NCBI GenBank assembly: GCA_958450365.1
Contig: CAUEEP010000657.1
Span: 62,001-126,000 of the forward strand
Reading direction: 5' to 3'
DNA length: 64,000 nucleotides
Source of the DNA: Mesorhabditis belari
Taxonomy: Eukaryota > Nematoda > Chromadorea > Rhabditida > Rhabditidae
This document shows positions 12,546 through 63,900 of the stretch, piece by piece (position 1 is the first letter of the stretch; each line of letters begins with the position of its first letter). The notes under the pieces were generated by a model. The model worked only from the letters and a program-made list of their open reading frames with translations. It was not told where the DNA came from and made no database searches. The translations under genes were made by a program, and so were the position numbers.

Positions 12546-14645
12546 TTTTGAAATCATCATAAATCATGCAGCATCAACACTTGGACTCAGGACTTCCTTG
12601 TCCTGTAGGAGACCCAGCTTAGCTCAGCCCAGCTCAGCTCCGCTCAGCTTACCTCAGCTAGATGCTAGGCAAAGGACAAATCAACTCCGAGATCGTACTA
12701 GGAATAAAATTAGCTCAAATTATACTAGCCCAATTTTCCGACTCCTCTAAAAGTCTCAGGCTTACAGAAAAACGGAACAAATAAGAAATGAGAGTCTGAG
12801 GGAGACAGAGAAGAAATCCTATCATTTTTAGCTTTCGTTTTCTCAAAATGAAAAGCCAGCATCTCCTCCATAATGATACCCGACGTGTTCTCTTCTTTTT
12901 CGACGATTTCCCCTATGTCCTTTCGCAATGAAATTGGCCTAGAGCCGCATTCTGGAATGCACAGCACTGAATTCATTACTCTTCGAAGGGGATCAATGTT
13001 TGGGAGAATTTGTCCTGCTAAAGCGTGCCCCGACTACCGTAATCTTGTCAAAAAAATCAGAATTTTCAATTTTCAATCAAATTTCATTTTTCTCGAATTT
13101 TACCCTCTAGTGACATCCAGGATTGATGAAAAGTTGAAAATTCGTCGAGTTTTAACTGTATGCTAGCCTGTATTCTTGTTGGAAACGTTTAAAACGACTT
13201 ACCCCATTTTCCGATTTAGTTACCCAACCCCGCGCTCCGCAACCGTACTTTGTGTGGATCGAACTTTGCAAACACCCATTTCCTAGCCAACTTTAATCCG
13301 AATTTCCCTCGATTTGGGGTTTTTTCGTGGAAATTTGACACATCTTAGCTGAAACTTTAGCTTTTTAAAAGGGAAATTCAAAAGTTTACAAAAAATTTCA
13401 AAAATATTAGTGAGAGCTGAAGTGAGAGCTGAAGTGAGAGCATTTCTCGTCACGTTTTAGTGCTCCGGTTTAGTCACCCAACCCATGGTTTAGGAATCAG
13501 GGTCGATGCTGTAGAAAGAAATGGTAAATTTCGAATTTCTGAACTTGAGAATATCCCTAGTGACTTCCAGAACCGCCAAAAAACCGTTTACTGACTAATT
13601 TGGATTACGGTAGGAAGAGAAAAGGGCACGGTTTAGGGACCGGTACAGTGACAAAGGATGAAACTGCTAATTTTAAAGTTTCAAGCTTTGGAAAATTCCC
13701 AAGTGACTTCCAGATTAGCCAAAAAACCGTTTACTGATCAATTTGGATTACGGTAGAAAGAGAAAAGGGCATGGTTTAGGAACCAGACTTGGCGCAACTG
13801 AATGTAATGGGAAATTTTCAATTTCTGAGCTTGAGAATAACCCTAGTGACTTCCAGATTAGCCAAAAAAAACGCTTACTAACGAATTTGGATTACGGTAG
13901 AGAGGGAAAACGGTTTAGAAAACGGATTCTACAAAACTCCTGTTCGTTTCTCATCCAAACAGTGATCGAGTTCAGCTATTCTGTGCTGTGCATTCCAGAA
14001 TGGGACTCTAGGCTGATTTCGTTGCGTTTTAACATTTTAAAACACTGTTTTTAGGGTCAGTTAACGATTGGGTACTGTAGAATGAGCATTTTTTAGGATT
14101 GGATACAAATTTGAGATGAAATTGTCGCTAATTCTTGTGATCATTTTGGAAAACCCAAAACCTCTACCCGAAATAAACTCAATCCGCTTATATCAGATTC
14201 GAATTTTGTATAGGTCGTGTATTCCATTCTTGAAAAAAAGGACACATAAATTTCTCTATCTTTTTCGAGGCTTTCCCTTGATTTTTGGTGGTCATTTCTC
14301 ATCCAGGACAGCAGGAAAATATTTGCGGATTGGGAATTTATGCAAAGCCTGAGAGCCAGGGGTTTTTGGTTTTTTTCAGAGTTTTGTGACGAGTTGGGTA
14401 ACTAAGCCGGAATCTAGAGTTGACTGAATGGTCAAAAAATTGAAATCTTTAGTTGTTGTGCGTTCCAGATCGCTCAGAAAACCAGTAAAAATGAAGACTT
14501 GTTGGAAAATTTTTAAGAGATTTTGAGGCGAATGAAATTGACAGAGTTGGGTAACTAAACCGGGCTCCGAAAAGTGCCCAAAGGGGAAGTGTTAGTTGTT
14601 GTGCGTTCCAGATAAGAAGATTTCGACACGAAAAATTTCGAAAAG
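12546..14645. repeat. Degenerate repeats carrying the 11-bp motif and its partner
   Basis: No supported gene. It includes a CAGCTCAG-type tract (12,610-12,660) and three degenerate units around 13,540-13,920 sharing CCGTTTACTGA and GGATTACGGTAG. The 11-bp motif GTGNNNTCCAG occurs at 12952 (reverse), 13110, 13560, 13703, 13846, 13988, 14458 and 14601. The gaps 13560-13703-13846-13988 and 14458-14601 are all 142-143 bp. The partner motif (TTAGTTACCCAAC or reverse) is at about 13,217, 13,470, 14,390 and 14,547. Confidence 0.6.
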
Positions 14646-14649
14646 AATA

Positions 14650-15165
14650 GCGACCGAAGCTGCCAATTGAAACACTCAGACAGTCCGACTCGTTTGAAAT
14701 CGATAAACGAGCCAGTCAAACGAGTCACTAAGAACAACTTACAATAAAATGAAGGATTGCTTGAGAACAAACACAACAAACAACGCTGAAGTCCATAAAC
14801 TCGTTTGGTAGATTCTGACAGATGCATTCATCAATGTCTAAAAAGGTCCGTACAAGAACAAACTTGGGATCTGACCTGCCGATCGAACATCCAATAAAGT
14901 ATCCAAAAAAGAGTCAATCGATTCCGTCAACAACGAATTTGGAGTATCCACAACAGTATCCAAACAACAACAAACAAGTTTAAAAACATGAGAGGTATTT
15001 AAACATAAAACCCAATAGATATAAGCCGATTTGATAGGCCTTTTTTTCAGCGAAGTCTGGCCAAAAACGAAGAAGGCAACGCTGATAGAAAGAATGATTC
15101 GGTGAAGAAACGATTGGTATTCAGGCATTTTCCCAAAAAACCTTATTTTTGGGTTTACAAATTAA
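14650..15165. repeat. Inverted copy of the 6,185-6,670 gene flank
   Basis: Reverse-complement match to the 3' flank of the gene at 4738-5799. It places the minus-strand F-box gene and its flank as an inverted duplicate. Reading frames inside mirror each other in both copies and do not look coding. Confidence 0.6.
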
Positions 15166-16398: not shown

Positions 16399-16459
16399 CT
16401 TGAATGGCGCCTTTTTACCTGTAAATAAAAAGAATTAGTCTTTGTAAGGGGCAGATCAA

Positions 16460-17555: not shown

Positions 17556-17559
17556 CGGT

Positions 17560-18960: not shown

Positions 18961-18962
18961 GT

Positions 18963-20668: not shown

Positions 20669-21361
20669 TTAAAGGGGGGGTATTAATCGCGGCCGGGTGA
20701 CGATAAAAATTTTTTTACGGCAACCACCTGTTTTTTTATTTTAATATCGCTGATTTTATTATAAAAAGAATAAAAATCACCCGGCTAGAGTGATTTGATG
20801 GGTTTACAAATTTTTGGAGACATTGCAAGGCTTGGAGAAAAACAAGATCGTCACTCATCAGCACAGTCTAGATCGATTGAGTTTTAATTGCAGATAAATT
20901 TAAAAACAAAATAAAAAGCACAAAAAGCAATAAAAATAAATTGTTAATCTATAATTCTTCCTCTTGCTCACTTTCATCTTCGCTCAAGTACAGCAGTACA
21001 AATCGGCTTCCTATCTTATCAATTTCCAGCGCATCTTCACCAAAAGTGACTGGATCTCCTCCATCGTAGGACGTCTTCAGCGCTTTGATTGACACAATTA
21101 GATCTTTTTTCATTTGTGGTCGCTTATGGTTTTAGTTTTCTCAAATAGGTGCCTTTTAGCTGAGGTGTCTGATGAGTGACGATCTTGTTTTTCTCCAAGC
21201 CTTGCAGTGTCTCCAAAAATTTGTAAACCCATCAAATCACTCTAGCCGGGTGATTTTTATTCTTTTTATAATAAAATCAGCGATATTAAAACAAAAAAAC
21301 AGGTGGTTGCCGTAAAAAAATTTTTATCGTCACCCGGCCGCGATTAATACCCCCCCTTTAA
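20669..21361. mobile_element. Complete TTAA-flanked inverted-repeat element (~685 bp)
   Basis: TTAA at 20669-20672 and 21358-21361 flank terminal inverted repeats of about 190 bp (20673 to ~20861 and ~21170-21357). The ends read AGGGGGGGTATTAATCGCGG and its reverse complement. A TTAA target duplication is characteristic of piggyBac-type elements, so this is probably a piggyBac-type MITE. There is no transposase. The centre (~310 bp) has no coding-like frame. Confidence 0.75.
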
Positions 21362-21606
21362 CTTTGAATTTATTCGACTTTCTCCGTTCATTTACTCGTT
21401 TTTCTTGTAAATAAGTGTCTTTTCACTTTCACAAAATGCTTTCAAATAAAATTTTTATCATTTTTATCAAAAAATTGTCCTCATTCTCTTTGTTGAAACA
21501 AATTTTATCTAAAAATTGCAAAAAATGAAAATTCAAACGAATTTCCGAATTCAAATTTAAAGCTTATTTTTAAATTTAAAGCTTATTTAAAGCTTATATT
21601 TAAAGC
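21362..21606. repeat. Segment homologous to the elc-1 5' flank (copy 2)
   Basis: Near-identical to 643-887 and similar to 34449-34665. It is bounded on the left by the TTAA of the complete element and on the right by the solo terminal repeat. Confidence 0.75.
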
Positions 21607-21733
21607 ATCAAATCACTCTAGCCGGGTGATTTTTATTCTTTTTATAATAAAATCAGCGATATTAAAATAAAAGAACAGGTGGCTGCCGTAAAAAAATTTT
21701 TATCGTCACCCGGCCGCGATTAATACCCCCCCT
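21607..21733. mobile_element. Solo right terminal repeat (copy 2)
   Basis: Counterpart of 888-1015, ending in CCCCCCC before TTTAA. Confidence 0.7.
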
Positions 21734-21869
21734 TTAAATCGATCTTTAGTTTCCGAAAAGTGACTGAAACTTTTCGAAACGTTTCTGTATACTTATTTTA
21801 AGACGTTCAAAAATTTGTAATGACGAAAAAAGAATCATTGTTAAAAGCAATGCCAATGGTGAATCTTCT

Positions 21870-22415
21870 ATTGGGTTGTCCAGTTATGAATGCGCGTTTT
21901 TACTATTTTGTAAATTTCTCAAGATATCGAACAGATGCATATGAGTGTTATATATCATTCGAAAGCTGAAGATCTCCTCTACATTTTGGAATAAAAAGCT
22001 TTGGAATTCATTCAACTTTTTGGGAAATTGACTGCACAAAGGGAGAGGTCGTTTTCGAAAAAAAACCCATTCCAGCTTAGCTATTCCTCAAGTTTTATGG
22101 TGTAAAATAACCGCCCAGAAAAGAAAAGAAAAGTAAAGATGCTCTGAAATTGTTATATTTTAAAAAAAGTTTTTTGATATATCTATTGGCCAAACAGCAA
22201 ACGGTTAACTCAATTTGAGCGCAGCCAAAACTTGATCCAAATGCACCCTTCCATTTTTTGGCCACCTCTTCTTCTGTGCAGTCAATTTGCCCAAAAGCTG
22301 AACAAATTCAAAAACTTTTTATATCAAAATGTAGAGGAGATCTTCAGCTTTCGAATAATACTCATATATATGTCGTAGCCGCTAACGAATGAGGGTATTT
22401 CCGGGCATCCAATCA
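21870..22415. mobile_element. Mariner-like MITE (copy 2)
   Basis: Near-identical to 1152-1700, with long inverted arms and no transposase. It was duplicated as part of the larger block and was not inserted independently. Confidence 0.6.
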
Positions 22416-23374
22416 AAAAGTCATCCACGTAAAAAATGTTTATAATACATATATTTTATAATAGATTTTTGAAATTAGCTCATTCGGTTCAATAGAAAAA
22501 TTTTTTTGAGCCCCCAAAGTTTAGGTTCAAAAATGCCCTGAAATGGCTATAAAAAATTTTCTACTTAGCCAAAAAGCTTGCCTAATAGCTCATTTTGTAG
22601 CCAATTTGATGTAGTTTCTTAAAGTAAAGCCATCTAAAACAATTCACAATCTCCTTGGTAACTTTAAGATAAAAATATGGAGAAAATCTTATCTGAAACG
22701 GTCGACCCATTTAAAAGGTCTATAACTGATGATGTCAGCGTTCAATCGACTTTTGCTTATTATCAATAGAATCTACGTTAAATTTCATTAAAGAAATATT
22801 TAATTTGTTTTATAGACTTACCAATAAAAACATAGATAAAATTAGGGTCAAAGTCGGATAAGTGCCTACCCCCCCTAGACATTTGTCTAGGGGGGGGGGG
22901 TAGGCTTCGTAGAAGTAGAAGTAGAAGTAGAAGATTCGCTGAAACGATAAGTTTATGGTAGTTTGTTGCTGTTGCAATAAGTTGCTCAAATTCAACGCAA
23001 AACCGAATTTAGTGCCCCATTTACGGTTTTTGCCCAATGAAGGGAAATGAGCGCGCTGAAGTGCTAAAAGTGATCAACGACTTGAAATTGATGAAATCAC
23101 TTCAACTTGAAGCGAAAAAGGTGCATTTTAACACATTTGCGTACAGTTTTGAAATGTTTTACGGATAATTTGAATCTTTTGAAATGTTTTACGGATAATT
23201 TGGCAAAAATTCAGTAATAAATGAAACCATAATAGTTATTCAATAGCCCTGAATCTTCTCTTCAAAACTAGTACAAAGTTGCCGAGAACTCTCTGCCAAA
23301 TATTGGGTTGCTGGATAAGTTTTGTCCGTTTTTTTGGGAGAGCATCTCAAATTCAACCAATTCCAACGTATAAT

Positions 23375-23600
23375 AGCTTTCTTACCACCGGAGATTGCGC
23401 CGGCCTAGAATTGCTTTCTTACCACCGGAGATTGCGCCGGCCTAGAATTGCTTTCTTACCACCGGAGATTGCGCCGGCCTAGAATTGCTTTCTTACCACC
23501 GGAGATTGCGCCGGCCTAGAATTGCTTTCTAATTTCGCTAATTTCGGAGACATTTTTTGCACCGCGCAACCTCCGGTGGTAGCAATTCTAGGCGCAACCT
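23375..23600. repeat. 37-bp minisatellite (copy 2)
   Basis: Four units with TTACCACCGGAGATTGCGCC, then a truncated inverted unit. Compared with 2655-2870 the array has gained a direct unit and lost part of the inverted one. Confidence 0.8.
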
Positions 23601-23621
23601 CAACGCTTGCTGCCGTTTCAA

Positions 23622-23708
23622 TTACTGTGCTTGCATCCATTTCAGAAGATCTTCGAAGATCTGAGGATAGAAGCGCCAGATCTCTTTTTTGAACTTTTTA
23701 CGCACCAT
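23622..23708 (-). pseudogene. 5' fragment of family B F-box-like gene (copy 2)
   Basis: Duplicate of 2877-2963 with the same 28-codon frame. No continuation downstream. Confidence 0.3.
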
Positions 23709-24376
23709 TCCTGGTTCTCCTATTAGAAAAATTCGAAGTTTTAGAGAAAAACTGTTAAAATGTTTTTGAGGGATGAATTTAGAAAATCGGGGAAAGAAAA
23801 GCAACCATTTCTTGTCATTTTCAAGAAGTTTTCAATCTCAAACTTCCAAATATGAAGATTAGACAGGAAAATCTGAAGAAAATTACGAAATGGAGACAAA
23901 AATTGGGAAATTATTGCTGAATTGACCACTTTTTATATGAAAAACACATTTGTTCCAGGGTTGCGACGAGATTTGGGGAAATTGATGCGGAATTAATTCT
24001 CGATCGATTAATGAATTCCAATGGGTGCTGTGCGTTTCAGAGTTGCAGCCCGTGTTCCAATGGATAGACTTCATTTAATAGACTGCCTTCAAACTGCCTT
24101 CAAACGCAATTTTTTGAATGTTCTCACGTTTGAATAGAAGAATCGGATTTGAAATGCAATAGTATCTAAGTGCTACTTTTTCGACTCCAGTGCACTCGAA
24201 ACGTTCAAAACCAGAGCCTGAAGTCAAATCAAATCAAATCAGCGCAGCTTGCTGAAACTGCTAATTTTCAAGTTTTAAACTTCGGAAAAACCGTGAATCT
24301 AGAATCAAATTTCGTGATCGAAGCTGAATCTTTGTGGGAATCTTGTATTTCAATGATTTCAATGATGATTTTTTAC

Positions 24377-24504
24377 ACATCAGATTTCGTCGAGAATTGT
24401 GCATATTCAATAGCTTCAGGAGCCATCCATTTTAATGGTAATTTAGCTCCACGAGATTTATAGAACATTTCACTACTGAGACGACATAAGTCAAAATCCG
24501 ATAG
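24377..24504 (-). pseudogene. Receptor-tyrosine-kinase activation-segment exon (copy 2)
   Basis: Duplicate of 3632-3759 with the TTTTTTCAG acceptor, KLPLKWMAPEA core and GT-AAAA donor retained. No neighbouring kinase exons are found, as in copy 1. Confidence 0.6.
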
Positions 24505-25312
24505 CTGAAAAAAGACTATTTAAAGTTAATAAAGATAATCCGTGATTAACCTCCATTTTTTTACCTGACCTACTTCCAACATTCCCTTAAAGCGCGAATA
24601 CAGCGTGAGAAAAAGTCAGCTGGTAGATCTTCACAAAACCTTGACACAAAAATTCGAATCACGTCTGAATCGTTAAACTTCTTTCCAGCCAAGGAGTGCT
24701 GCATTGATTCAAACATATTGAAAAAGGTAAAACGCTACAATTTTAGAGGAAATTTAAGGGTTTTTGGTTTTTTTGCTTCGTTGTGTATAAATTATATCGT
24801 GGATGATCTAGATTAAGGTAGGTTTCGTCAGAAAACCTACTGTAACTGCTAGCATTTAAGGGAAAAGTTTGATGAAATCATTCATTCTTTTCCTTCTCTA
24901 GATTTCTCGTTTTTGTCGTGTTTTTAACCTTTATTATAGCATACGGTGCAAAATTTTTTCATTTTTTCAAATTTCAGATTCGCAAAGCTTTAAAACGTTT
25001 AAAATTCTAGAATTTCCCGATTTGCTCAACTAAACCCCATTTCTTAATGCAAAATGATTAGAATTTGGCAAATCCAGCTTATTTTAAGCATGAGACCCGA
25101 TCTTAAAGCACCTCACCTGTTTAAAATATTAGTTTTGAATTCATTTGTCTAGATCTCAGTCTTTTTGTGCTGTTTTAACATTTTTATACCATACCGTGCC
25201 AAATTTCACCCAATAATGTAAAAAATAGACCTCGATTTTTGTTAAAATTCCACTAGAACACATGATTTTATGCGTGTTTCTTTCGTTTTCTATTTTTTCG
25301 GTACTAGAACCG

Positions 25313-25421
25313 TGCAATGGATCACTTTTAGCATTTTAACAATTCTTTTATTGGAAATTCATCATTCACGCTTTAGAAAACAAGCTTTTACTATTAAAAA
25401 TGTTGAAAGTGATCCATTGCA
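25313..25421. promoter_or_regulatory. Inverted repeat upstream of F-box-like gene (copy 2)
   Basis: Same arms and spacing as 4567-4675. Confidence 0.6.
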
Positions 25422-25482
25422 TTGATCTGCTCCTTACAAAGACTAATTCTCTTTATTTACAGGTAAAAAGGCGCCATTCAAG

Positions 25483-26544
25483 ATGCCATTCGAGATGCGA
25501 ATGCCAAAAAGATGCGAATGCGAAAAGATGCCAATGATGATGTGGAATCTGACAACATTTCCACTCGAACGTCTTTGCTTTGATCTGAAGTTGGAGGTTT
25601 TGGAGCAATTGGACGCAGGAAATGTGATTGAATTGGGGAAAGTCAATCCAGGATTCCAACGGATGATTTCGAGTCGACCATGGATAGCTTTTGGACATCA
25701 CGTCCATGAGATTGAATTTGGGTTTGATCCACACGGAATTGAAGCAATCAACATCAAGAAGCTGAATTCGGAGTCACGTGGGGTCAGTCTGGATATGATT
25801 CGTCATCTTCCTTTCATCAAAAACATTCGATCGTGCAATCGATTGTGTATGGGCAAGGATTACGAGAGCCCAATCGATAAAGATCACGCCACTTTTCTGA
25901 AACAATTAGAGGCAGTGAATTCACTCGATGTTTTTTGGTGTGAGCCTCAGCACTTGGGGTTGCTTTCTCATTTGTCAGTCAAGATCAAGAGATCCGCGAT
26001 TCTTCCCAGCTTCCCTCAAAAAACTCCATCAATAAAAGATCTGGTTGGGCACTTCATTGAGACTCAACTCAACGAATGTGAAAGAGTCTGGGTTCATTGT
26101 TTGAATGATGATGATTTTCAGTTTTACTACAATGCTTTTGTAAAGACCCACATCAAATATTTTGAAATCGCATGTTACGAGGAAAATGTCATCGTTCCAG
26201 CCATTCAAAGGATTGTTGGCCACGGAATTCCGAGCAAAAACCCCGCAGCGGTTGTGAGAGTTTGGGTGGATTCTTTCGACGATTTGATGGCTACAATCGT
26301 TGTTTTTCTCAAGGGATATCCAGGAATGAAACAAATCTACGGGAAAAATCGTCAACCATTCATTGCATTGGCAAACGATCGTTGGGAGGCAGGCGGATCT
26401 CCCGCTTTGACGATGAAAGCTCTGTGTTTCCGACGAAATATCAATGCGACGCAAGATTGCATTTACATGTTGGAGATCGATGGAAAGCGTTACATCTATT
26501 TTTTCTCCTTCTACATCAAGCCCGATGAAATGATCGATCATTGA
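25483..26544 (+). CDS. F-box-like protein, family A (intact copy 2)
   Basis: A 353-residue frame that differs from the product of 4738-5799 only at VHC(L/S)NDDD and ATI(V/I)VF. Here the sequence between the acceptor and the start has one A fewer, which supports the ATG at 25483 because the upstream frame is not conserved. The N terminus MPFEMRMPKRCECEKMPMMM is an expansion of the MPMMM start seen in paralogues. The F-box-like region lies at residues ~24-70, with an unrecognised C-terminal region. AATAAA lies at 26854-26859. Confidence 0.8.
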   Translation: MPFEMRMPKRCECEKMPMMMWNLTTFPLERLCFDLKLEVLEQLDAGNVIELGKVNPGFQRMISSRPWIAFGHHVHEIEFGFDPHGIEAINIKKLNSESRGVSLDMIRHLPFIKNIRSCNRLCMGKDYESPIDKDHATFLKQLEAVNSLDVFWCEPQHLGLLSHLSVKIKRSAILPSFPQKTPSIKDLVGHFIETQLNECERVWVHCLNDDDFQFYYNAFVKTHIKYFEIACYEENVIVPAIQRIVGHGIPSKNPAAVVRVWVDSFDDLMATIVVFLKGYPGMKQIYGKNRQPFIALANDRWEAGGSPALTMKALCFRRNINATQDCIYMLEIDGKRYIYFFSFYIKPDEMIDH

Positions 26545-27755
26545 GGTTTTATTGCTAGATTTTGCTGGCCTTACAGTGTCTTTGCGTGATTTAGATCCTG
26601 TTTTTGCCTTTAAGCTAGCATTAACTAATTTCAGTCTCCGAGATTTGGAATGTAGATGCATTTGAATTTGTATTTAATTCCCTTCCCTAAGATATTTAAA
26701 TTTGACTTAATTTCTAAGCTTTCTAAACTTTCTACACAAAATTCCAAAACTAAAATATGATTTCAATTCTTTTCTGTACGTTGATGCTTTCTAAGCCAAA
26801 AGCGGCTCCTTCTACGCCTTTACATATTCGGCGCACTTTTTTCATGCGCCATGAATAAAGGATGATTCTTAACGTTGGGTACTCCTGATAAAAACTAATA
26901 TGTAAACCCAAAAATAAGGTTTTCTGAGGAAAATGCCTGAATACCAATCGTTTCTTCGCCGAATCATTCTTTCTTTCGGCTTTCTTCGTTGCGGGTCAGA
27001 CCTCGCTGAAAAAAAGGCTTATCTAATCTGATCATTTTATATCGCCATTCTGATGGGGTTTTTGTATCCGTAACAAGTTAAATTCTGTTGTTTGAACTCT
27101 AAATTCGTTGTTGAAGGAATGGGTTGACTCAATCTTTGTTAGATACTTTATTGGTTGTGCGATCGGCAGGTCAGATCCCAAGTTTGTTCTTGTACGAACC
27201 TTTTTAGGCATTCATGAATGCATCGGTCAGAATCTACCAAACGAGTTTATGGATTTGAGCGTTGTTTGTTGTGTTTGTGTTTGTTCTCAAGCAATCCTTC
27301 ATTTTATTGTAAGTTGTTCCTCGCGTTTGACTGATTCGTTTGACTGGCTCGTTTATCGATTTCAAACGAGTCGAATTGTCTGAGTGTTTCAATTGACAGC
27401 TTCGTCCACTATTCGTAGGTGTGTCTGGAAGGGAAGAGGTAAAAATAGAGTTTTATTCTACTTGTTTTACCTCAATTCGATTACTTTCCATTCCCTTTTT
27501 GTACAAAAGAGAGTTAAACAAAATTGATCTGATAGAGCTTTCTTCTTCTGCGTTTTCCTGATCCATATTGTTTGGCTGTGATTACTTTAGTATCGTGTGG
27601 ACTTTGTTTGTAAACTTTTTGTATAGGTAATTTCTTTTATTGTCATTTGAAAAGACTCATCACCCCACTGTTACACTTGAAAGCTTCCTTGTTACGAGCT
27701 CTCTTTTCATTTGAATACATTTCCAACTTTTTGCCGCTCTTCTTCTGTTTTAGTT

Positions 27756-27833
27756 ATGGCGATTTGTGACTGTCTGGACGACGTAATCGCTCTGCAAAGT
27801 TTGCCGCCTCTTCCGGACTTTGACCAGCTCTGA
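27756..27833 (+). CDS. Possible micro-ORF, 25 codons (copy 2)
   Basis: Identical to 7011-7088, with the same TTTTAG acceptor-like sequence two bases before the ATG. Given the overall ~99% identity of the blocks, identity is not evidence of selection. Confidence 0.25.
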   Translation: MAICDCLDDVIALQSLPPLPDFDQL

Positions 27834-28006
27834 TTCGGCTTCAAACTTCGTTCAACCTGTTCTACTCCGAAGGACAGGGATCAAGTCTGTGTGCATTGTG
27901 ATCTGAGAAAGCGGCGGCGTGTATACTAGATTCTCTAAATCGATCAGATTTTTATGCCTCCTCAAATTCTATTGACAAAGACTATGACAGCTTCTACGCT
28001 AGTCTC

Positions 28007-48739: not shown

Positions 48740-49400
48740 TAGTGAATCCTGGCAGGCACACAGCAATTCGGTCATTCCAGGTTTTTTGTTTTGTCTAAAA
48801 AAAAGTTTCAAAAGTGCGTAACTAAACCGGAAGCCATTCCCAGGTCTAGAATAGTGCTAGATCGAAAACAAAAGTGTCAATCAGCTATCTGGAAGTCACA
48901 GGACAAATAGAGCAATCTGTTTTCTTCAATGCTTTCAAGAAATCAAGTACTTCATTTAGTGCGTAACTAAACCGGAAGTCAACCCAGCTATTTCTAGCTC
49001 TAGAATAGTGCTAGATCCAAAACAAAAGCGTCAATCAGCTATCTGGAAGGCACGGGGCGAATAGAGCAATCTGTTTTGTCCAATGCTTTCAAAGAAATCA
49101 AGTACTCCATTTAGTGCGTAACTGAACCGGTGACCATACTCAGCTCTAGGTTAGTGCTAGATCAAAAACAAAAGCGTCAATCAGCTATCTGGAAGTCACA
49201 GGAAAAAATAGCAATCTGTTTTGTTCAAATGCTTTCAAAAAAATCAAACACTTCATTTAGTGCGTAACTAAACCGAAAGTCAACCCAGCCATACCCAGCT
49301 CTAGAATAGTGCTAGATCCAAAACAAAGCGTCAATCAACTATCTGGAAGTCACAGGACAAATAGAGCAATCAATTAAGGCTATAACAATTGTTGGTCTCA
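48740..49400. repeat. ~150-bp motif array
   Basis: Units share GTGCGTAACTAAACCGGAAG and TCAATCAGCTATCTGGAAG. The motif (reverse) is at 48889, 49043, 49189 and 49343 (spacing 146-154), each following the reverse partner motif. Confidence 0.85.
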
Positions 49401-49929: not shown

Positions 49930-51280
49930 AAGTAAATTTAAAGCATTATTGAGCGATTTTTATGCTAGCTGGATGTCACTTTATTTGATTTTAAAACATT
50001 TGAAGCCTAAAGAAGATTTTGGTGAGAGTCGAATAGTTGCGTAATTGAACCGGCCGGTTTTCCGAGCTAGCAAGCATGCTAGAAGCATAATTCAGCGATT
50101 TTCATTCAAGCTGGATGTCACTTTATCTAATTTTAAAACATTTGAGAGGTAAGGGGGTTTTGGTAAAAGTTGACTAGTTGCGTAATTGAACCGGCCGGTT
50201 TTCTGAGCGAGCAAGCAAGCTAGAAGCATCATTTAACAATTTTCATCCAAGCTGGATATCACTTTATCTAATTTTAAAAGATTTGAAGCCTAACGACGAT
50301 TTTAGTGAAAGTTGACTAGTTGCGTAATTGAACCGACCAGTTTTCCAAGCGAGCAAGCGAGCTAGAAGCATCATTTAACAATTTTCATCCAAGCTGGATA
50401 TCACTCTATCTAATTTTAAAAGATTTGAAGGCTAAAAAAAATTTTGGTGACAGTCGAATAGCTGCGTAATTGAACCGACCAGTTTTCCAAGCGAGCAAGC
50501 AAGCCGGCAGCATAACTCAACAATTTTTATCCAAGCTGGATGTCACTTTAACCAAATCAGAATTGATGAGGCGTTAAAATTTGATTTTAAAATCTTGACT
50601 TAAATGGCTTTTGTAGTTTCTCGTACTTTTTTTATAAATCAGCCTATTCTTATCTTCTTTTTCATTTCATTGCTCTTGTTTTCGCAATTCGTTTATTTCA
50701 AAACACTTCTGCTAGATCACTGGGTTATTGAGCCGATCTTCGTTTAAATAGTTGCGTAATTGAACCGGCTGCTTTTCTGAGCGAGCAAGCAAGCTGGAAG
50801 CATAATTTAGTGATTTTTATCCAAGCTGGATATCACTTTATCTAATTTTAAAACATTTGAAGGCTAAAAAGGATTTTAGTGAAAGTTGACTAGTTGCGTA
50901 ATTGAACCGGCTGCTTTTCTGAGCGAGCAAGCAAGCTGGAAGCATAATTTAGTGATTTTCATCCAAGCTGGATATCACTTTATCTAATTTTAAAAGATTT
51001 GAAGCCTAACGACGATTTTAGTGAAAGTTGACTAGTTGCGTAATTGAACCGGCCGGTTTTCTGAGCGAGCAAGCAAGCTAGAAGCATAATTTAGCGATTT
51101 TCATTCAAGCTGGATATCACGTTATCTAATTTGAAAAGATTTGAGGGCTAAAAAGGATTTTGGTGACAGTCGAATAGTTGTGTAATTGAACCAACCAGTT
51201 TTCTGAGCGAGCAAGCAAGCTAGAAGCATAATTTAATAATTTTCATTCAAGCTGGATGTCACTTTAACCAAATCCAGTTC
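49930..51280. repeat. 142-bp-spaced motif array upstream of chtl-1
   Basis: Nine units, each with reverse partner TTGCGTAATTGAACCGG, then GAGCGAGCAAGCAAGC, then CTGGATGTCAC or CTGGATATCAC at 49969, 50111, 50252, 50393, 50536, 50826, 50968, 51109 and 51252 (spacing 141-143 except one gap of about two units). The same units reappear in chtl-1 introns at 53.4-54.1 and 57.2-57.4 kb. Confidence 0.9.
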
Positions 51281-51459: not shown

Positions 51460-54400
51460 ATGGTGCGCCGTGTGCACCCGTCTGCTCCGCCGGTCGAGCT
51501 GTACTCGAGCGATTTCCACCATCATCCACCATCGAATCACCGTCCCGATCACCATTTCCCGAATCCTGGACCTCACTCTCCTCCCCCGTCCTACCCGGGA
51601 TCGATTATGGTCACTCATGGGCGAACGCATTTTGTCCAGGACCACGACTCGATCTACAACGAGATCAGCGACGGCGAGAATGACGGAATCGCGGACGAGC
51701 AGGGGATTATCCCAGTCATTACGCCAGATCGAGCGGCAAGATTCAACCCAAAAACGATAAACCCAAAGAAACGGCATAAACGAAGAAAATCGAATCCGAT
51801 GTACTACACGAAAAGGTATCCTAAGGAATTTAGTGATTCAAATTTGCTAAAATGAAATATTCTGTCATTTTCGAGTGTTCTGGAAGTCACACTAGCTATT
51901 CGATGAGTAAAATTGGAGATTTTCGAAATTTCTAGAAGTTGGTGGTTTACGAAAAGGTTCCCTCAAACTTTAGTCATTCAATTTTGCTAAAATGAAATAT
52001 TCTTTCATTTTCGAGTGTTCTGGAAGTCACTCTAGCTATTCAATAGATAAAATTGAGGATTTTTGAAATTTCTAGAAGTTGGTGGTTTACGAAAAGATAC
52101 CCTGAGGTTTTTAGTTGTCCAATTTTGCTAAAATGAAATTTTCTGAGATTTTTGGGCATTCTGGAGGTCACCCTAACTATTCGATAGGTAAAAATGAAGA
52201 TTTTCGAAATTCCTTGAAGTTGGTGATTTACGAAAAGGTATCCTAAGGAATTTAGTTATTCAATTTTGCTAAATTGAAATATTCTTTCATTTTCGAGTGT
52301 TCTGGAAGTCACACTAACTATTCGATGAGTAAAATTGGAGATTTTTGAAATTTCTAGAAGTTGGTGGTTTACGAAAAGGTATCCTAAGGAATTTGGTTGT
52401 TCAAATTTGCTAAAATGAAATATTCTTTCATTTTCGAGTGTCCTGGAAGTCACACTAGCTATTCAATATATAAGCGTAACAAAATTAGCAAAATTTAAAA
52501 ATTCAGACAAAATGTCAGAGTTGAGTCAGAATTAAAATAAAATTGAGCTTTTTCGCCAAAGCCTTTTTAGCCAATCGATTAGTTTTTTGACTAATTCTAA
52601 AGCACAGACCTTTTCTAGTCAAATTCCTTTCAGGGGCTGCACCGATGTGGCCTGCTGTTTCCTCTTCACGCTTTTCATCGGCGGCTGGGCGTTCATCGCA
52701 GTGTTCGGTGAGTTTTTTGGTTAACCAAAAAAGAAAAACCGTAAACAAATCAACTTTTTGTGCGATCTGGAAGTCACAGAACATTTCCAGAATAAAAATT
52801 TTCGATTCTTTGTGCTTTTTAGGTTTTATGTTCGGCAATCCGGAGCGTCTCATTCACCCGGTTGACTCGCTAGGCCGACGGTGTGGTTTTAATCGAAAAG
52901 GCGGCTACGATTTGACGTGAGTGGCTGCTGTGCGCTCCAGCTTAAAGCTTTTTTGTATTTTTAGCTTTCTAATTACAAAGTAACCAATTCTACATTGTCA
53001 GAATTGTCAAAAATCACTTCAAAATTCCAGTTCAAAGCCGTATCTCTTCTTCTTCGATCTCACAACTTGCATTTCGTACTCAACTCTGCTAGCTGGATGT
53101 CAGACTCCACAAGTAAGCTTTAAAAAAGGGACACTTATCAATGGGAAATTTTTTTGAGTTGCGTAACTAAACCGGTTTTAGGTTTGCGTCTCGCAATGTC
53201 CGACCGCTGTCTTTTCCTATCTCGAGCTACAACAATATGGCGATGGATCGAATGCTTTTATTGCGAATGTACAGCAGAAAATGATTTGTCAGGATACGTT
53301 TGACAAAGCGACCCTTGTTTCTTACAATTTGGTGAAAGCGGCTGTGAATAATGGAAGCTGTGCGAAATACACAATTCCGTCAGCACCGGGTTAGTTTTTT
53401 TAATCGATAACGGCATCTTGGAAGGCACCAGGAAGAAACTGAGCGTTTGAGAGTTAATTGGGAATTTTGGTGAGAGTTGAATAGTTGCGTAATTGAACCG
53501 GCCGGTTTTCTGAGCGAGCAAGCAGGCTAGAAGCATGATTTAGCGATTTCTCTTTAAGCTGGATGTCACTTTATCTAATTTTAAAGCATTTGAGGGCTAA
53601 AGAGGATTTTGGTGACAGTCGAATAGTCGCGTAATTGAACCGACCGGTTTTCTGAGCGAGCAAGCAAGCTGGCAGCTTAATTTAGCGATTTCTCTTCAAG
53701 CTGGATGTCACTCTATCTAATTTTAAAGCATTTGAGGGCTAAAAAGGATTTTGGTGAAAGTTGCATAGTTGCGTAATTGAACCGGCCAGTTTTCTGGGAG
53801 AGCAAGCAAGCTGGAAGCATAATTCAGCGATTTCCCTTCAAGCTGGATATCACGTTATCTAATTTGAAAACATTTGAGAGCTAAAGGGGATTTTGGTAAA
53901 AGTCGAATAGTTGCGTAATTGAACCGATCAGTTTTCCAAGCGATCAAGCAAGCTGGAAGCCATACTTAACAATTTTCATCCAAACTGGATGTCACTCTAT
54001 CTAATTTGAAAACATTTGAAGCCTAACGACGATTTTAGTGAAAGTCGAATAGCTGAGTAATTGAACCGGCCAGTTTTCTGAGCGAGTAAGCAAGCTGGCA
54101 GCATAACTCAACAATTTTCATCGAAACTGGATATCACTTTACTCAATTCCAGTATTGGGTCGCTGCTTGCCGCAATTTTTGATCGGTGCCGTGAACTCCC
54201 TGAACGACCTCCAGTCAGCAAATGGAAGCCTCTCTCAACTCATCAATCAATTCGGCAATGACGGTGGCTCAATTCCAAACGCGACTTTGCTAAACGACAC
54301 CGGAAAGTATGGTTTATCAGTTTTAAATTCGCATTTAAATTTGAATTCAGTATTGTCGGGAATTTGGTGGGCTCTGAGGGAGTGCTGACAAAAATCGCGG

Positions 54401-57400
54401 CCGATTTGAGCAATGTGGGGTTTTTTTTTTTTAAAATCTCCATCCTGGAGGTCACACTATAATTTGAAAACAGAATATAGCCTAAAAAAGAAAAAATTTT
54501 TCTTTCCAGAGCTGGTGGCAAATTCTCACAATGATCATCGTAGCCGGCGTTCTAGCTTTCTTGTGGACGGTCGTGATGCGGATTTTTGGATCCCTAATGA
54601 TCTGGAGCTCGATCGGATTGATTGTGGCCGGGTTGAGTGTCGGTGAGTTGGGGAATTGAGCCGAGATCAGAGTTTGAGCGATTTTCTCGAAAACTATCTA
54701 TGGAATAGATAAAATTTTGAAGTATTCGGCCACTATGGAAGTCACATTGGGGAATCGTTGCAAAAGTTTTGGGTAAAGCTGATGAAATGAATGGGTGGAG
54801 TGAGACAAATCTGTTTGGATCAAAAAGGGAGGAATTCTTTGAAAATCAAAAATTCTAATAAACTTTTCGGGAGATCTGGAACGCACATAGTTCATTGCAG
54901 TTTTTAGATTTTCGATTTATGCAAATTTTTACTGAGCGATAGGTCCATGGTTCGACTCCGCTGAGTGACGAGATTTTTCAAATCGTCTTTTCGATACTTT
55001 TTTTGAGCGTTTCAGCTAGTGTGCGTTCCAGATCGGTAGAATAATTCGGGAATTGATCCAATTCCAACTTAAATCCGGCAAAATCCGAGTTTGAGCGATT
55101 TTCTCGAAAACTATTTATGGAATAGATAAAATTTTGTAATATTCGGCCATTATGGAAGTCACATCGGGGAATCGTTGTGAAAGTTTTGGGTAAAGTTGAT
55201 GAAATGACTGGGTGGAGTGCGACAAATGAGTTTGGATCAAAAAGGCGCGAAATTCTTTGAAAACCAAAAATTCTAATAAACTTTTTGGGAGATCTGGAAC
55301 GCACATAGCTCATTAGAGTTTTTAGATTTTAGATTTATGCAAATTTTTAGTGAGCGATAGGTCCATGGTTCGACTCCGCTGAGTGACTTTTTTTAAAATC
55401 GGCTTTTTGCCAATTTTTTTAGTGTTTCAGCCAGTGTGCGTTCCAGATCGGTAGAATAATTCGGAAATTGATCCAATTCCAACTTAAATCCGGAAAAATC
55501 CGGGGTAAGAGCGAATCACCCAAGCTGTTCTCTGTGCGGTAATCGCTCGCCGTCTAGCACACGTCTAGCACACCGCTCGGGTATAGGAGGCGAAGATCCA
55601 ATTCCTCTCATTCCTAGGCTGCGGCTACTGTTGGATCAAGTGGCAAGGTCTACGGAGCTCTGGTGCAACGGACGATTTCTCTTTTCAACCGATGTTCAAC
55701 CTCTACTTCGAGATGCCAACGACTTGGCTGGTTTTCGGTAAGAAATTCGAATTTCTGAAGCCAAAATCCTTCGATCTGGATCTCACAACAACTTTCCAGC
55801 GATCGGTGGCAGTATCATTTTGCTGATTGTGGTTTTGATATTGCTCTGCGTGGCGAGTCGGATTCGATTGGGCGTCGCGATGATCGAGGAAAGCAGCAAG
55901 TCAGTGAAAATCGGCTAATCTGGAAGGCAAAGCAATAGAATTTCTAAATTTCACGGTGACAGGTCAAGTGCTATTTTGAAAATCCTCTAAACGGTCTAGA
56001 ATCAGCTTAAAACTGAGGCGTGAGCTCCAGATTGGACATTCAAGAGTTCCAAATCCCTCTAGTCTGCCTAGAATCAGCTTAAAACTGAGGCATGAGCTCC
56101 AGAATGGAAATCCAAAAGTTCAAATCCCTCTAGATGGTCTAGAATCAGCTTAAAACTATAGCGTGAGCTCCAGATTGGAAATCCAAAAGTTCAAATCCCT
56201 CTAGACCGCCTAGAATCAGCTTCAAACTGTAGCGTGATCTCCAGAATGGAGATCCAAGAATCCCAAATCCCTCTAGACGGTCTAGAATCGGCTTAAAACT
56301 GTAGTGTGAGCTCCAGAATGGAAATCCAAAAGTTCAAATCCCTCTAGTCTACCTAGAATCAACTTAAAACTCAGGCGTGATCTCCAGAAAAGACATTCGA
56401 ATTCTTAGAATTGCTTAACGCCTAAACGCTAACACCTAGAATCGCTTCCTTGGGGCAATCTGAGTTCCAGGGCATCCATTCAAGCCACTCAAGCCGAAAC
56501 TTACCTTCCAGAGCTGTTGCCCACATGATGTCTACTCTTCTCTTTCCCCTGTTCCCCTTTATTCTTCACGTGCTCGTCTTCATCATGTGGGGCTCGATCG
56601 CGATTTGGCTCGCCTCAACAGGTGACGAGAATTGCCGAAAACAGGGAGCGACCGGGAACGAGACGATGAACAATCCGAGTTGTCCGTGTGAAACGCTGGG
56701 AGTGGTGAGTCATTCTCTAAAGTTAACAGTTGCCTAAGCTAATTGCAAGCCAGAGAAAGCCGGTAGGCCAGAGCTGGAGGCCGGAGCTGGAGGCCGGAGC
56801 TGGAGGCCGGAGCTGGAGGCCAGAGCTGGAGGCCAGAGCTGGAGGCCGGAGCTGGAGGCCAGAGCTGGAGGCCGGAGCTGGAGGCCGGAGCTGGAGGCCA
56901 GAGCTGGAGGCCAGAGCCAGTAGGCCTAATTAGGAAGCTAGGCTAGCTAAGCTAGACTATCTAGGCTAAGCTAGGCGAGGCCAGAACCAGGCTACTGAAC
57001 GTTTTAACCTGATCCTGACCTTTTCTTGATCTTATGAAACAACCCTGAGCCAAGCCCTTGCGCTTGTAAGCCTAGCCAGCCTAGATCCAAGCCAGCCAGC
57101 TAGCTTTAGCTTCTGATGATTTGGACATCAGAAGCTAAAGCTAGCTGTACTGCAGTAGAGCCAGACTAGACCCGTAATTGAACCGGTCGGTTTTCTGAAC
57201 GACCAAGCAAGCTGGAAGCATAATTTAGCAATTTTTATCCAAGCTGGATATCACTTTATCTAATTTTAAAACAATTGAAGCCTAAAGAGGATTTTGGTGA
57301 AAGTTGAATAGTTGCGTAATTGAATCGGCCGGTTTTCCAAGCGATCCAGCAAGCTGGAAGCATAATTTAACAATTTTTATCCAAGCTGGATATCACTTTA

Positions 57401-60400: not shown

Positions 60401-63189
60401 TTCTGCTTTTCATTGGCAAAGCCACGATCACGATTGGGATGGGTGAGTGCGAAAAAATCGATTTATAGAGTTTTTTGGAAATTTGGGCATCTTTGGCGAA
60501 ATGATCGATTTCGCTCAAATCCTGTAACAGAATTTTTTTTTAGAATTATTTTAAGCTTTCAAAAGTTATTCGTTTACTTCTGTGACATCCAGAACTCATA
60601 GAAAAACGATAAAAACAAAAACTTTCCATATGAAAATCAAAGAAAACCTAGGCAACTTGAAATTTCCAGTCAAGAGTAGAAATTAGCATTTAAATTAGCA
60701 TTTTTTGCGTGAATTAGCTCCTGTGACATCCAGAACTCATAGAAAAACGATAAAAACAAAAACTTTTCATAGGAAAATCAAAGAAAACCCGGGGATCTTG
60801 AAATTTGAATTTAAGAAAAGAAATTAGCATTTAAAATTCCCATTTTTGCGTTAGTTATCTTCTGTGACATCCAGAACTCATAGAAAAGTTATAAAAACGT
60901 AAACTTTCCATATGAAAATCAAAGAAAACCCTGAGATCTTGAAATTTGCCTTTAAAAATTAGCATTTAATTATCCTTAAAAATTAGCATTTAAAAATTAT
61001 CCTTAAAAATTAGCATTTTTTAAAATGCCCTTAATTTCCATTTATTTTGCATTAGTTAGCTTCTGTGACATCCAGAACTCATAGAAAAACGATAAAAACA
61101 TGAACTTTCCATATGGAAATCAAAGAAAACCCTGAGTTCCTGAAATTTGGATTTAAGAAAAGAAATTAGCATTTAAAATTCCCATTTTTGCGTTAGCTAT
61201 CTTCTGTGACATCCAGAACTCATAGAAATATTAGAAAAAATTGGAAATTTCTCTCAAAAACGGATTTTTCTAAGGCCGGTTTAATTACCCAAGTACTGAC
61301 CTTATATCGGGGCAGTGTGCCAGGCGCTGTTTTTTTCCGACACAAAAAGAACGCACAAATTTCCTTTCGGAGTTCAGAACAATCCAGCGCTCGCTATCAG
61401 CTTAAGAACCAGCTAGGGGCTAGGTCTAGCTTAAGACCAGACCAGGGCCGACTGGAACACTTGATCATTGTAGATTGCATTCAAATGTACCCCTTTTCCA
61501 GGTGTGATCGCTTTTTATTGGTTTTCGGGGAAATGGGTGATCAACGGGATCCCGCAAGTTCAACTCTATTACTATTTCGTGCCGATTATCATCGTTTTGA
61601 TTGGATCGTATTTCATCGCTGATCTCTTCTTCGACGTTTATGATATGGCTGTCGATACGACTTTCATTTGCTTCTGTAAGTGTTTTTGAAGGTTTATAGG
61701 CTGCATGGCATTCCCAAGTAAGAAGGGGCTGCCACGCAGTGTCAAAATAACATTAAATCTAAATTTTGCAAGCTCATTAAGCGCTGTGCGCTCCAGATTG
61801 AAGATCTGAAAAGCGCTTGCATAGCTTTCCTTAGCAGAGTCTGCGTAGCAGCCCCAAGTAAGAAAGGGCTGCCACGCAGTGTCAAAATAAGGTTATAATC
61901 AATTTTGGAGTGCTCATTAGGCGCTGTGCACTCCAGATTGAAGATCTAAAAAGCGCTGGCATAGCTTTCCGTAGCAGAGTCTGCGTAGCAGCCCCAAGTG
62001 AGAAAGGGCTGCCACGCAGGGTCTAAATAATGTTAGATCTAATTTTTCAGTGCTCATTAGGCGCTGTGCGCTCCAGATTGAAGATCTGAAAAGCCCTCAA
62101 GCCAGAAGTTCAACTCTTGACTGTCAATAATATAGGAGAAAAATAGGGCTGCCACGCAATGAACTAAAAGATCGTATCAATCGTTTTCAAAAGTATTCTT
62201 CTTGTACAATGCGCTCCAGCTCAGTTATCTAAGCGTTAATGCGGCAATTTCTTGCATTTAGGCTCGATATTTTTACTCAAAATCGTTCCCGGTCATTCGA
62301 TTTTTTCGATTTCGATTTTTCGATTCGAATTTTTTGCAATTTTTCTTCTCCGATTAGAAATTTGTTTTTAAAAATGCGGCTTTTCCCTTTCCCCTTTCAA
62401 TGCTGATTCATTTTTGTGTTGGTAAAGCAAAAATTTTTTCTATTTTTTGTTCGATCATCATTTTTCGAATTTCTCTTTTGTGTGAAAATGCCGCCGAATT
62501 AATTTTGTCACTTTCGCAAAAAACCGAAAACAAATCATTGCAAAGGGAAAAGTGACATCCAAAATGAGAGATTTTGTTGAAAAATCCTGTTCGAAGCTGA
62601 AGTTTAAGCAAGAAAATGCGGTGAACGAGATCTAGTCGAAAAATTGATGACTATTGGGTTTTCTGAAGAAACTTTAAGCGATTTGGGCATTATGGAAGGC
62701 AACTTAAAGAATTCTAACGGTAGAGTTGGCAAAATTTAACTTTTAGATGCGAAGGATTACGGTAGCTTGAGCACAAGATAGGAAAAGACGAAAATTTTAA
62801 AGATAGCCAGCTAAAATTTATGGATTTTTGGCAGATCTGGAAGTCACGAGAGCTAAATAAAAAGTTTAAATTGCGAAATTTCCAAATTTGACTTTGAGGT
62901 CACGGTAGCTTGAGCACAAGATAGGAAAAGACGAAATTTTAAAGATAGCCAGCTAAAATTTATGAATTTTTGGCAGATCTGGAAGTCACGAGAGCTAAAT
63001 AAAAAGTTTAAATTTCGAAATTTCCAACTTTGACTTTGAGATTACGGTAGCTTGAGCATAAAATAGAAATTTGTGAAAATTTCAGTGGAGGACAGCGAGC
63101 AAAACGACGGCAGCCCCGAAAAGCCTTATTTCATGACGCCAAATTTACTGAAGATTCTCGGGAAGAAAAACGAGCCGACGAAAGCTTGA
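51460..63189 (+). CDS. chtl-1: Choline-transporter-like protein (SLC44/CTL family), 18 exons
   Basis: Exons 51460-51815, 52634-52707, 52823-52916, 53031-53112, 53182-53389, 54153-54306, 54351-54414, 54510-54642, 55618-55737, 55800-55899, 56512-56704, 57942-58053, 58198-58303, 59810-59938, 59984-60053, 60298-60442, 61502-61675 and 63086-63189 join in phase to 805 residues. The N terminus (~118) is His/Pro-rich and basic. TM1 is [21 protein letters not shown] Cys-rich, N-glycosylatable loop (NGS, NAT, NDT) follows, then about nine more hydrophobic spans. Family marks are [40 protein letters not shown] and the [14 protein letters not shown] end. CTL proteins are plasma-membrane or organellar choline/solute carriers. 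The start follows TTTTCATTCAG, possibly a trans-splice site. The symbol is by similarity to the C. elegans family member. Confidence 0.93.
51816..52470. repeat. 141-bp intronic array that includes the exon-1 donor
   Basis: Five units containing ACGAAAAGGTATCCTAAGG. The first unit is the exon-1 donor itself (ACGAAAAG|GTATCC). The motif (reverse CTGGAAGTCAC) is at 51880, 52020, 52161, 52302 and 52443, every 140-141 bp. Confidence 0.9.
53400..54140. repeat. 142-bp motif array in chtl-1 intron 5
   Basis: Five units like those at 49.9-51.3 kb. Reverse motif at 53418, 53559, 53701, 53842, 53988 and 54127. Confidence 0.9.
54667..55592. repeat. Two copies of the ~425/500-bp dispersed repeat in chtl-1 intron 8
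   Basis: First copy 54667-55086 lacks the tail; second copy 55087-55592 has it (GTGCGGTAATCGCTCGC ... TATAGGAGGCG). Motif positions are 54735, 54876 and 55021, then 55152, 55294 and 55436, so each copy equals about three lattice steps. Both copies keep the B-box-like GGTTCGACTCC. Confidence 0.85.
55960..56400. repeat. 71-bp motif array in chtl-1 intron 10
   Basis: Six units sharing CTAGAATCAGCTTAAAACT. Motif GTGAGCTCCAG or variant at 56020, 56092, 56163, 56234, 56306 and 56377: every gap is 71-72 bp, half the spacing of the other arrays. Confidence 0.9.
56755..56935. repeat. 12-bp GGAGCTGGAGGCC repeat
   Basis: About 14 units of GGCCGGAGCTGGA / GGCCAGAGCTGGA in chtl-1 intron 11. Confidence 0.9.
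57165..57890. repeat. Motif units, GACCTGTAGTA tract and telomere-like hexamers
   Basis: Two units of the 49.9-51.3-kb type (57,175-57,400), a GACCTGTAGTA tract (57,530-57,605), then GCC-rich hexamers including five perfect tandem GCCTAA at 57752-57781, the complement of the nematode telomere repeat TTAGGC. All lie in intron 11. Confidence 0.85.
58345..58580. repeat. 10-bp AACCTAGGTC repeat
   Basis: About 23 units of AACCTAGGTC, AACCTGGGTC and AGCCTAGGGC in chtl-1 intron 13. Confidence 0.9.
58720..58920. repeat. 30-bp repeat
   Basis: Six to seven units around TTGATGATCTTCCCAGAGCT in chtl-1 intron 13. The minus-strand open frames follow from the 30-bp unit. Confidence 0.9.
59320..59585. repeat. 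GGTCGGCTGGTC repeat
   Basis: About 265 bp of TCGG-based 4- and 8-mers (GGTCGGCT, GGTCGGCA), GC-rich, in chtl-1 intron 13. Confidence 0.9.
60570..61240. repeat. 141-bp motif array in chtl-1 intron 16
   Basis: Five units sharing CCAGAACTCATAGAAAAACG. Motif GTGACATCCAG at 60582, 60723, 60864, 61065 and 61206 (141, 141, 201, 141). The long gap contains an extra 60 bp of duplicated TTAAAAATTAGCATT. Confidence 0.9.
61690..62140. repeat. 140-bp motif array in chtl-1 intron 17
   Basis: Units share AGGGCTGCCACGCA. Motif GTGCGCTCCAG or variant at 61786, 61926 and 62066 (spacing 140), with a decayed fourth unit to ~62,220. Confidence 0.9.
62680..63060. repeat. 142-bp motif units before the last chtl-1 exon
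   Basis: Units share GAGCACAAGATAGGAAAAGA and GGCAGATCTGGAAGTCACGA. Reverse motif at 62837 and 62979, with a decayed relative near 62690. Confidence 0.85.
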
Positions 63190-63294
63190 ATATGTTGAAA
63201 ATCACTTTTTTTTCACATTTTTCACATATTTTTGTACATACAACCATGGGTGTCCCCTAATCTACTTAAAACTTGAATCCAGCCTTTAATCTTT

Positions 63295-63900
63295 GCGAAT
63301 CCGGTAGTGTGCGCTCCAGCTAGCGTGTTAAACTTTGAATTTTTGTGATATTTCTCTTTTCCGCCATTTTACAGCCCCAGTCCCAAATCTATCATACTGT
63401 AACTTCTAGAAATGCAGATTTCCATCAAATCACTGCACCAATCACTCCGGTGCGCTCCAGCTAGCGTATTAGACTTTGATTTTCTGCGATATCTTTGTTT
63501 TCCGCCATTTTATAGCACCAGCCCCAAATCTATCGTACTGTAACTGCTGGAAATTCAGATTTCTGTCAAACCATTGTACCAATCACTCCCGTGCACTCCA
63601 GCTAGCGTGTTAGACTCTGAATTTTTGTGATATCTCTCTTTTCCGCCATTTTACAGCCCCAGTCCCAAATCTATCATACTGTAACTTCTTGAAATTCCGA
63701 TTTCTGTCAAATCACTGCACCAATCACTCCCGTGCACTCCAGCTAGCGTGTTAGACTTTGAATTTTTGTGATATCTCTCTTTTCCGCCATTTTATAGCTC
63801 CAGTCCCAAATCTATCGTACGGTAACTGCTAAAAATTCCGATTTCCATCAAATCACTGCACTAATCGTTCCCGTGCGCTCCAGAATCTAGCATTACGACG
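63295..63900. repeat. 141-bp motif array downstream of chtl-1
   Basis: Units share CTTTTCCGCCATTTTA and CCCAAATCTATC. Motif GTGCGCTCCAG or GTGCACTCCAG at 63309, 63450, 63591, 63732 and 63873, every gap 141 bp. Confidence 0.92.

Follow-up and report, generated by a model that had tools for sequence, protein, structure and literature searches.

Why should tandem arrays that otherwise appear unrelated carry the same 11-bp motif once per repeat unit, in units of about 141 bp? The question arose in a 64,000-nucleotide stretch of the Mesorhabditis belari genome (here called the window; C491:62001-126000 of the assembly), where an initial annotation counted at least 70 copies of GTGMNNTCCAG in either orientation. 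Exact matching located 99 sites at the places described (55 on the + strand and 44 on the − strand), compared to a mean of 0.45 and a maximum of 4 in 40 Markov simulations. The reversed window sequence contained no match, and none of 300 letter-scrambled patterns equalled 99, the top scrambled count being 12, confirming the excess over shuffled sequence. Across the 207.6-Mb, 714-contig assembly there were 14,158 sites compared to 572 for the reversed-pattern control, counts that near-identical duplicate contigs, such as C159 and C569, may have inflated. Mitochondrial COX1 was 91% identical to a cluster labelled Rhabditida, 90% to Litoditis, 89% to Caenorhabditis briggsae, and 98% to a protein in ENA, placing the host nearest to rhabditids; 389 copies of the SL1 leader followed by GT and 39 U6 matches also mark the assembly as that of a nematode. 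Motif density in the window was ~23 times the genome mean, marking it as a motif-rich region, and the motif was absent from 10-kb stretches of C1, C2, C3, and C5 (1-10000) and from C491:32001-42000. In its extended form, the motif showed weak preferences across ~30 bp.

All ten arrays listed in the initial annotation were present. The arrays and box pairs of the window, where a box is a copy of the motif, are as follows:

13513-13910, + strand: array with a 143-bp unit, family 6; boxes at 13560, 13703, and 13846 and a further box at 13988
14458-14611, + strand: pair of boxes 143 bp apart, at 14458 and 14601
36071-36226, no strand: divergent box pair 145 bp apart; alike at 54876-55031 and 55294-55446
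38320-38761, + strand: array with a 140-bp unit, family 15; 4 boxes
40514-41058, + strand: array with a 141-bp unit, family 1; 3 exact boxes and a degenerate one at 40936
45862-46506, + strand: array with a 140-bp unit, family 1; 5 boxes
47392-48254, + strand: array with a 141-bp unit, family 1; 7 boxes
48813-49371, − strand: array with a 154-bp unit, family 1; 4 boxes; an exception to the 141-bp pitch
49941-51266, − strand: array with a 142-bp unit, family 1; 9 boxes
51808-52473, − strand: array with a 141-bp unit, family 11; 5 boxes
53464-54137, − strand: array with a 142-bp unit, family 1; 5 boxes
55980-56389, + strand: array with a 71-bp unit (half the pitch), family 12; 5 exact boxes and a degenerate one at 56092
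60580-61216, + strand: array with a 141-bp unit, family 4; 5 boxes; a short repeat interrupts it at ~60.95-61.02 kb
61713-62094, + strand: array with a 140-bp unit, family 22; 3 boxes
62755-63066, − strand: array with a 142-bp unit, family 36; 2 boxes
63309-63883, + strand: array with a 141-bp unit, family 13; 5 boxes; homology starts and stops at a box

Spacing of ~142 bp where units have decayed was also verified in the first two of these features. The claim that the unit is always 140 to 143 bp held for most arrays and failed at 48.9 to 49.65 kb (146 to 155 bp), at 56.0 to 56.4 kb (71 to 72 bp), and in C5 (mostly 143 to 148 bp). Counting overlapping rows, the exact motif was found in 51 of 53 Tandem Repeats Finder rows of period 139 to 148 in all loci examined, some of which (L036 to L041 and L045 to L056) were chosen because searches showed motif sites there; in the window and C491, the part not selected by motif, the figure was 31 of 32. 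Of the two motif-less rows, one had a copy with one mismatch and the other was a GAGCCT-type simple repeat. None of 378 rows with periods below 60 carried an exact motif.

The window has other repeated content. Many further short-period tandem repeats, all without the motif, occupy 29.2 to 44.5 and 56.7 to 59.6 kb, for example, GCAGCATTAAATG at 36.9 to 37.6 kb and CCGATCTCCTTCCAGCAA at 43.65 to 44.4 kb. A block at 1 to 7748 recurs at 20738 to 28490, an offset of ~20.7 kb (shared 40-mers), and carries near-identical open reading frames (4654 to 5799 and 25483 to 26544). One of these had a sub-threshold F-box match (15.0 bits against a cutoff of 20.5), and no homologue of it was found among 844 candidates. 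The three divergent box pairs each enclose a segment containing GGTTCGACTCC, which resembles a tRNA B box.

Are the arrays related? Of 329 sites, 4 lying too close to a locus end to have full context were removed, and with the motif masked the remaining 325 fell into 100 families (blastn E of 1e-4, single linkage), 32 of which had a window member. Looser clustering gave 83 families at an E of 0.01 and 65 at 0.05, where the biggest component contained 173 of the 325 sites. A single ordinary satellite aligning along its full length is rejected by these counts. The broader claim that all ten arrays are unrelated survived in part: those at 38.3, 51.9, 60.6, 61.8, and 63.3 kb belong to five separate families, whereas those at 40.5, 45.9, 47.4, 50.0, and 53.4 kb form one single-linkage component of 36 sites, perhaps joined via a second shared box, GGTTYARTTACSCA.

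This second box looks like the 5′ portion of the SL1 leader and occurs 34 times in the window (reversed control, 0). Its sites lie at 40.5 to 54 kb and 57.3 kb of the window and also in L025, L031, L032, L045, and L056; in 6 of the 100 families it occurs within 110 bp of the motif, 51 to 74 bp from the motif center and thus between successive boxes. A TACNGTA element is common to ~20 of the 100 families and has no single position.

The motif itself is far better preserved than its surroundings. Searching with flanks only in 25 families, the exact motif was kept in 76 of 88 copies, a count restricted to families of at least 3 members and to copies no more than 97% identical to the reference. 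Identity within these families was 99.1% at the eight fixed motif columns compared to 87.3% at both the two N columns and the flanks, with references that carried the motif by construction.

Pitch is the second shared property. Same-strand spacings in the window peaked at 139 to 143 bp (49 pairs), ~282 bp, and ~423 bp. Genome-wide, 4,283 same-strand pairs lay 138 to 145 bp apart compared to 29 at 108 to 115 bp, and 19 of those 29 came from one 19-bp repeat in C469. Random scatter of sites would give ~4 pairs at 138 to 145 bp, and the reversed motif gave 4. Since the window contributes only 99 of the 14,158 sites, the genome-wide peak near 141 bp that the initial annotation anticipated is real. 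At C469:5494-5960, the motif itself lies within a 19-bp head-to-tail repeat.

The same pitch was found between boxes in opposite orientation. In equal-width windows, 261 head-to-head pairs were spaced 138 to 145 bp apart and none 108 to 115 bp apart, with 45 of the first 50 of the 261 at 140 to 143 bp. Head-to-head pairs at this distance show that head-to-tail duplication cannot be the sole source of the pitch, and fixed-length tandem amplification by itself, one of the explanations offered at the outset, leaves all 261 unexplained. Divergent pairs at 131 to 161 bp numbered 406 genome-wide (reversed control, 0); in the first 50 of these, 24 spacings were 138 to 143 bp, 21 were 147 to 154 bp, none were 144 to 146 bp, and the remainder were 132 to 133 (2), 156 (1), and 160 to 161 bp (2). 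Because contig C159 supplied 33 of the 50 listed head-to-head pairs and 29 of the 50 divergent ones, not all are independent. At C159:547049-547486, four boxes in alternating orientation are 142, 142, and 143 bp apart. The region C159:310-715 kb is dense in head-to-head and divergent pairs, partly alternating at ~142 bp.

Neighboring boxes in sampled loci that belong to different families also tended to this range, with 14 of 51 same-strand pairs at 138 to 161 bp, 7 of 32 convergent pairs at 141 to 154 bp, and 11 of 23 divergent pairs at 141 to 174 bp. Degenerate copies detected by a position-weight scan (35930, 45600, 53418, 54735, 55152, and others) close gaps at 131 to 145 bp. Nearest-neighbor distances in the window and C491 had a second broad cluster of 29 cases at 304 to 344 bp, ~2 times 160. 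Rayleigh tests found no clear helical step in the sampled spacings; the first 50 divergent pairs alone showed one (R of 0.53, reached by 0 of 5,000 smoothed-bootstrap draws), under a null whose width was chosen by us and with 29 of the 50 pairs from one contig.

A third shared property, and a new one, is a rhythm in base composition. With each family weighted once, A+T content oscillates around the box every 10.2 bp, in fixed phase with the motif over ~120 bp. Peaks lie at +15, +26, +36, +47, +57, +68, and +74 downstream of the motif center and at −14, −24, −35, −44, −52, −60, and −69 upstream. In nucleosomal DNA, the minor groove faces inward ~15, 26, 36, 46, 57, and 67 bp from the dyad. The downstream peaks fit these positions, and the upstream peaks fit as far as −35 and then drift, with −44, −52, −60, and −69 straying from the symmetric positions. 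The coherent block spans about −47 to +73, and phase slips between blocks.

Random-offset nulls never reached the observed phasing (0 of 300 and 0 of 500). The phase was the same in the 32 window families, in the 68 without a window member, and in 17 from 12 scattered 1-kb loci, and it persisted when the sites were clustered more loosely (83 or 65 families). Amplitude was 0.135 for motif families compared to a median of 0.023 for the 79 of 200 random 6-mer anchors that had enough sites; the top random values were 0.084 for GTGACA, which is part of the motif, 0.065 for TCACAG, which overlaps the motif's other strand, and 0.059. Power at 10.25 bp was 3.30 at motifs, 1.58 in 829 nearby motif-free windows, and 1.17 in 825 motif-free windows of other loci, so that a mild 10-bp periodicity exists in DNA near the window even off motifs. 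The rhythm was weaker yet present in 13 families whose box had no second exact copy within 400 bp.

Together, the pitch in both orientations, the A+T phasing, and the constraint on the motif favor a model in which the box is bound while lying on a nucleosome of defined rotational setting, with packing near 141 bp. The reading that we prefer, to which we assign a probability of about 0.58 on the strength of these sequence patterns, is that a protein binds the box close to the dyad of a nucleosome whose rotational position is set, that such units pack at a pitch of 141 bp, and that the satellites are secondary. GTGMNNTCCAG and its weaker flank preferences would be the binding site of a sequence-specific protein, the box would sit at the nucleosome dyad or one helical turn off it, and the rotational setting would be written in the flanks as an alternation of A/T and G/C every 10.2 bp. 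Adjoining box-nucleosome units may then pack at ~141 bp, keeping neighboring boxes apart by that distance in any orientation. Local amplification of the DNA between neighboring boxes would yield short, unrelated arrays of one period, a step that the positions of array starts support and those of array ends do not. Selection would preserve the box, the pitch, and the bendability rather than the sequence. The suggestion in the initial annotation of a DNA-binding protein phased with nucleosomes thus gains from the 10.2-bp phasing and the opposite-orientation pitch, while the protein and the nucleosome themselves are what we infer.

Two indications of the position of the dyad differ. A WW/SS template preferred +10 (score of 12.5) over 0 and +20 (both 10.8) in 97 families, whereas the equal pitch of tandem and head-to-head pairs favors a dyad at 0; mirror symmetry does not fix it. 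A nucleosome core covers 147 bp. The 141-bp pitch is shorter and would suit a particle that is smaller or has some of its DNA unwrapped, for example, a CENP-A nucleosome; the fit to such a particle is a thin thread to a centromeric role.

The best surviving alternative, although an unlikely one, is an ancient family of 141-bp satellites or transposons that has diverged everywhere except its core, so that period and motif were both inherited. Letter identity in the flanks carried 4.53 bits compared to 1.94 expected by chance, a sign of residual common ancestry or letter preference, and both the weak preferences of the extended motif and the joining of many units under the loosest clustering point the same way. 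Against common descent, the excess is larger, and mostly found, when flanks are scored as A/T versus G/C (5.88 bits; chance, 0.96), head-to-head pairs at 140 to 143 bp are not products of tandem inheritance, and array units seem to have been lost and remade while the pitch stayed.

It is quite improbable that the box acts by promoting recombination or transposition, with breaks or strand exchange generating box-to-box units and the A+T phase arising as a side effect. After 3 of 52 arrays were dropped, array starts fell −11 to 20 bp from a box in 18 of 45 cases (P = 0.007 if uniform), and several arrays (63309-63883 and 38320-38761, for example) both start and stop at a box; the proposal made for Box 1 in Meloidogyne offers a precedent (PMC3694981, in its available text). 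However, array ends showed no such excess near the box (15 of 47; P = 0.43) and clustered at 61 to 95 bp as well, and such a process explains neither the 141-bp distance between unrelated neighbors nor the 10.2-bp phase.

A regulatory or small-RNA promoter element (of the SL, snRNA, or piRNA type) or pairs borne on MITEs like the HIM-17 m1m2 sites would fit thousands of copies that are dispersed as well as clustered and partly in inverted pairs, and 10-bp WW periodicity is described in C. elegans germline promoters in the available text of PMC7706728. This explanation is very doubtful. No motif occurred around 12 of the 389 copies of the SL1 leader followed by GT in the assembly, or around 12 of the 39 U6 matches, ruling out an SL or snRNA promoter element on those loci, and the sites stand in unrelated flanks. 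As to pairing of the MITE type, one inverted block is present three times in the window, but the flanks of most families are unrelated. Rfam at gathering thresholds gave no matches in the window.

Least credible is a mutational footprint, in which nucleosomes placed by other means imprinted the A/T rhythm through periodic mutation without selection: within families, columns at A/T peaks (for example, −20, +19 to +20, +30, +33, and +41) look by eye better conserved than their neighbors, which biased mutation could also produce, but the fixed 11-bp box with its 99% conservation and the pitch of oppositely oriented pairs are left unexplained.

Several parts of this pattern have parallels in print, here compared with the available text of each source. 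In Meloidogyne, 11 satellites share the 17-bp CENP-B-box-like Box 1, and five families of CenH3-associated repeats share a 19-bp box (PMC3694981, PMC9673304). Both cases concern a nematode with divergent satellites that have one short conserved box, at which junctions have been proposed, and the M. belari box is likewise conserved across divergent repeats. The differences are that ~100 families occur here in the ~0.27 Mb scanned, that the box letters differ, and that the text on the Meloidogyne boxes mentions neither a pitch independent of orientation nor a 10-bp rhythm in phase with the box. Compared by eye with the core bases of the CENP-B box YTTCGTTGGAARCGGGA (available text of PMC9673304), the motif lacks TTCG and CGGG on both strands. 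Subirana and Messeguer described frequent short species-specific motifs in holocentric nematodes, isolated or in satellites (PMC3634726). GTGMNNTCCAG is similarly short and frequent both in isolation and inside satellites, yet by eye no motif in their Table 2 matches it, and their satellites are mostly of short period (69 to 95% below 50 bases).

Other comparisons concern chromatin. Human alpha satellite with its CENP-B box also places a box in nucleosome-phasing repeats, but in 171-bp units of one homologous family with other box letters; 10-bp WW periodicity in satellites is described in the same source (PMC8997354, available text), and the ~10-bp A/T rhythm seen here is of that kind. The HIM-17 m1m2 sites in CERP2/CELE2 MITEs number thousands, dispersed and partly in opposite orientation, as here; they are pairs 10 to 30 bp apart in homologous MITEs (PMC9757741, available text), whereas the M. 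belari boxes are single, ~141 bp apart, and unrelated in their flanks. C. elegans germline and ubiquitous promoters also carry a positioned nucleosome with a 10-bp WW rhythm, anchored on transcription starts and not on a satellite box (PMC7706728, available text). A short box across divergent nematode satellites, frequent short motifs, and 10-bp WW satellites are therefore already in print. A search that included 15-mers, with most subscription papers outside its scope, found no description of the motif, and the available text of the literature searched described no box common to so many families, no pitch in both orientations, and no box-locked bending rhythm.

What might such a box do? The role held most likely, though still less probable than not, is to mark centromeric or otherwise structural chromatin in the manner of a CENP-B box; the chromosomes of M. 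belari are assumed, from its relatives, to be holocentric. A pairing-center-like role, also raised in the initial annotation, would be a further candidate. More generally, and as a tentative reading of the sequence, the box and its A/T frame could form a DNA-encoded nucleosome address, providing thousands of single-nucleosome seats at an orientation-free 141-bp pitch, with satellites as by-products of centromeric or structural chromatin. Selection on the seat rather than the sequence would allow unrelated DNA to be recruited repeatedly and amplified into satellites of one period.

It has long been asked why satellites of unrelated sequence have unit lengths close to that of a nucleosome. In this one genome, about 100 families have a common box, a pitch in both orientations, and a bending rhythm in step with the box, so that selection on a nucleosome seat and box may be separable from selection on sequence within a single genome. 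The box would also be a concrete bait for its binding protein in a free-living-type nematode lineage near model species.
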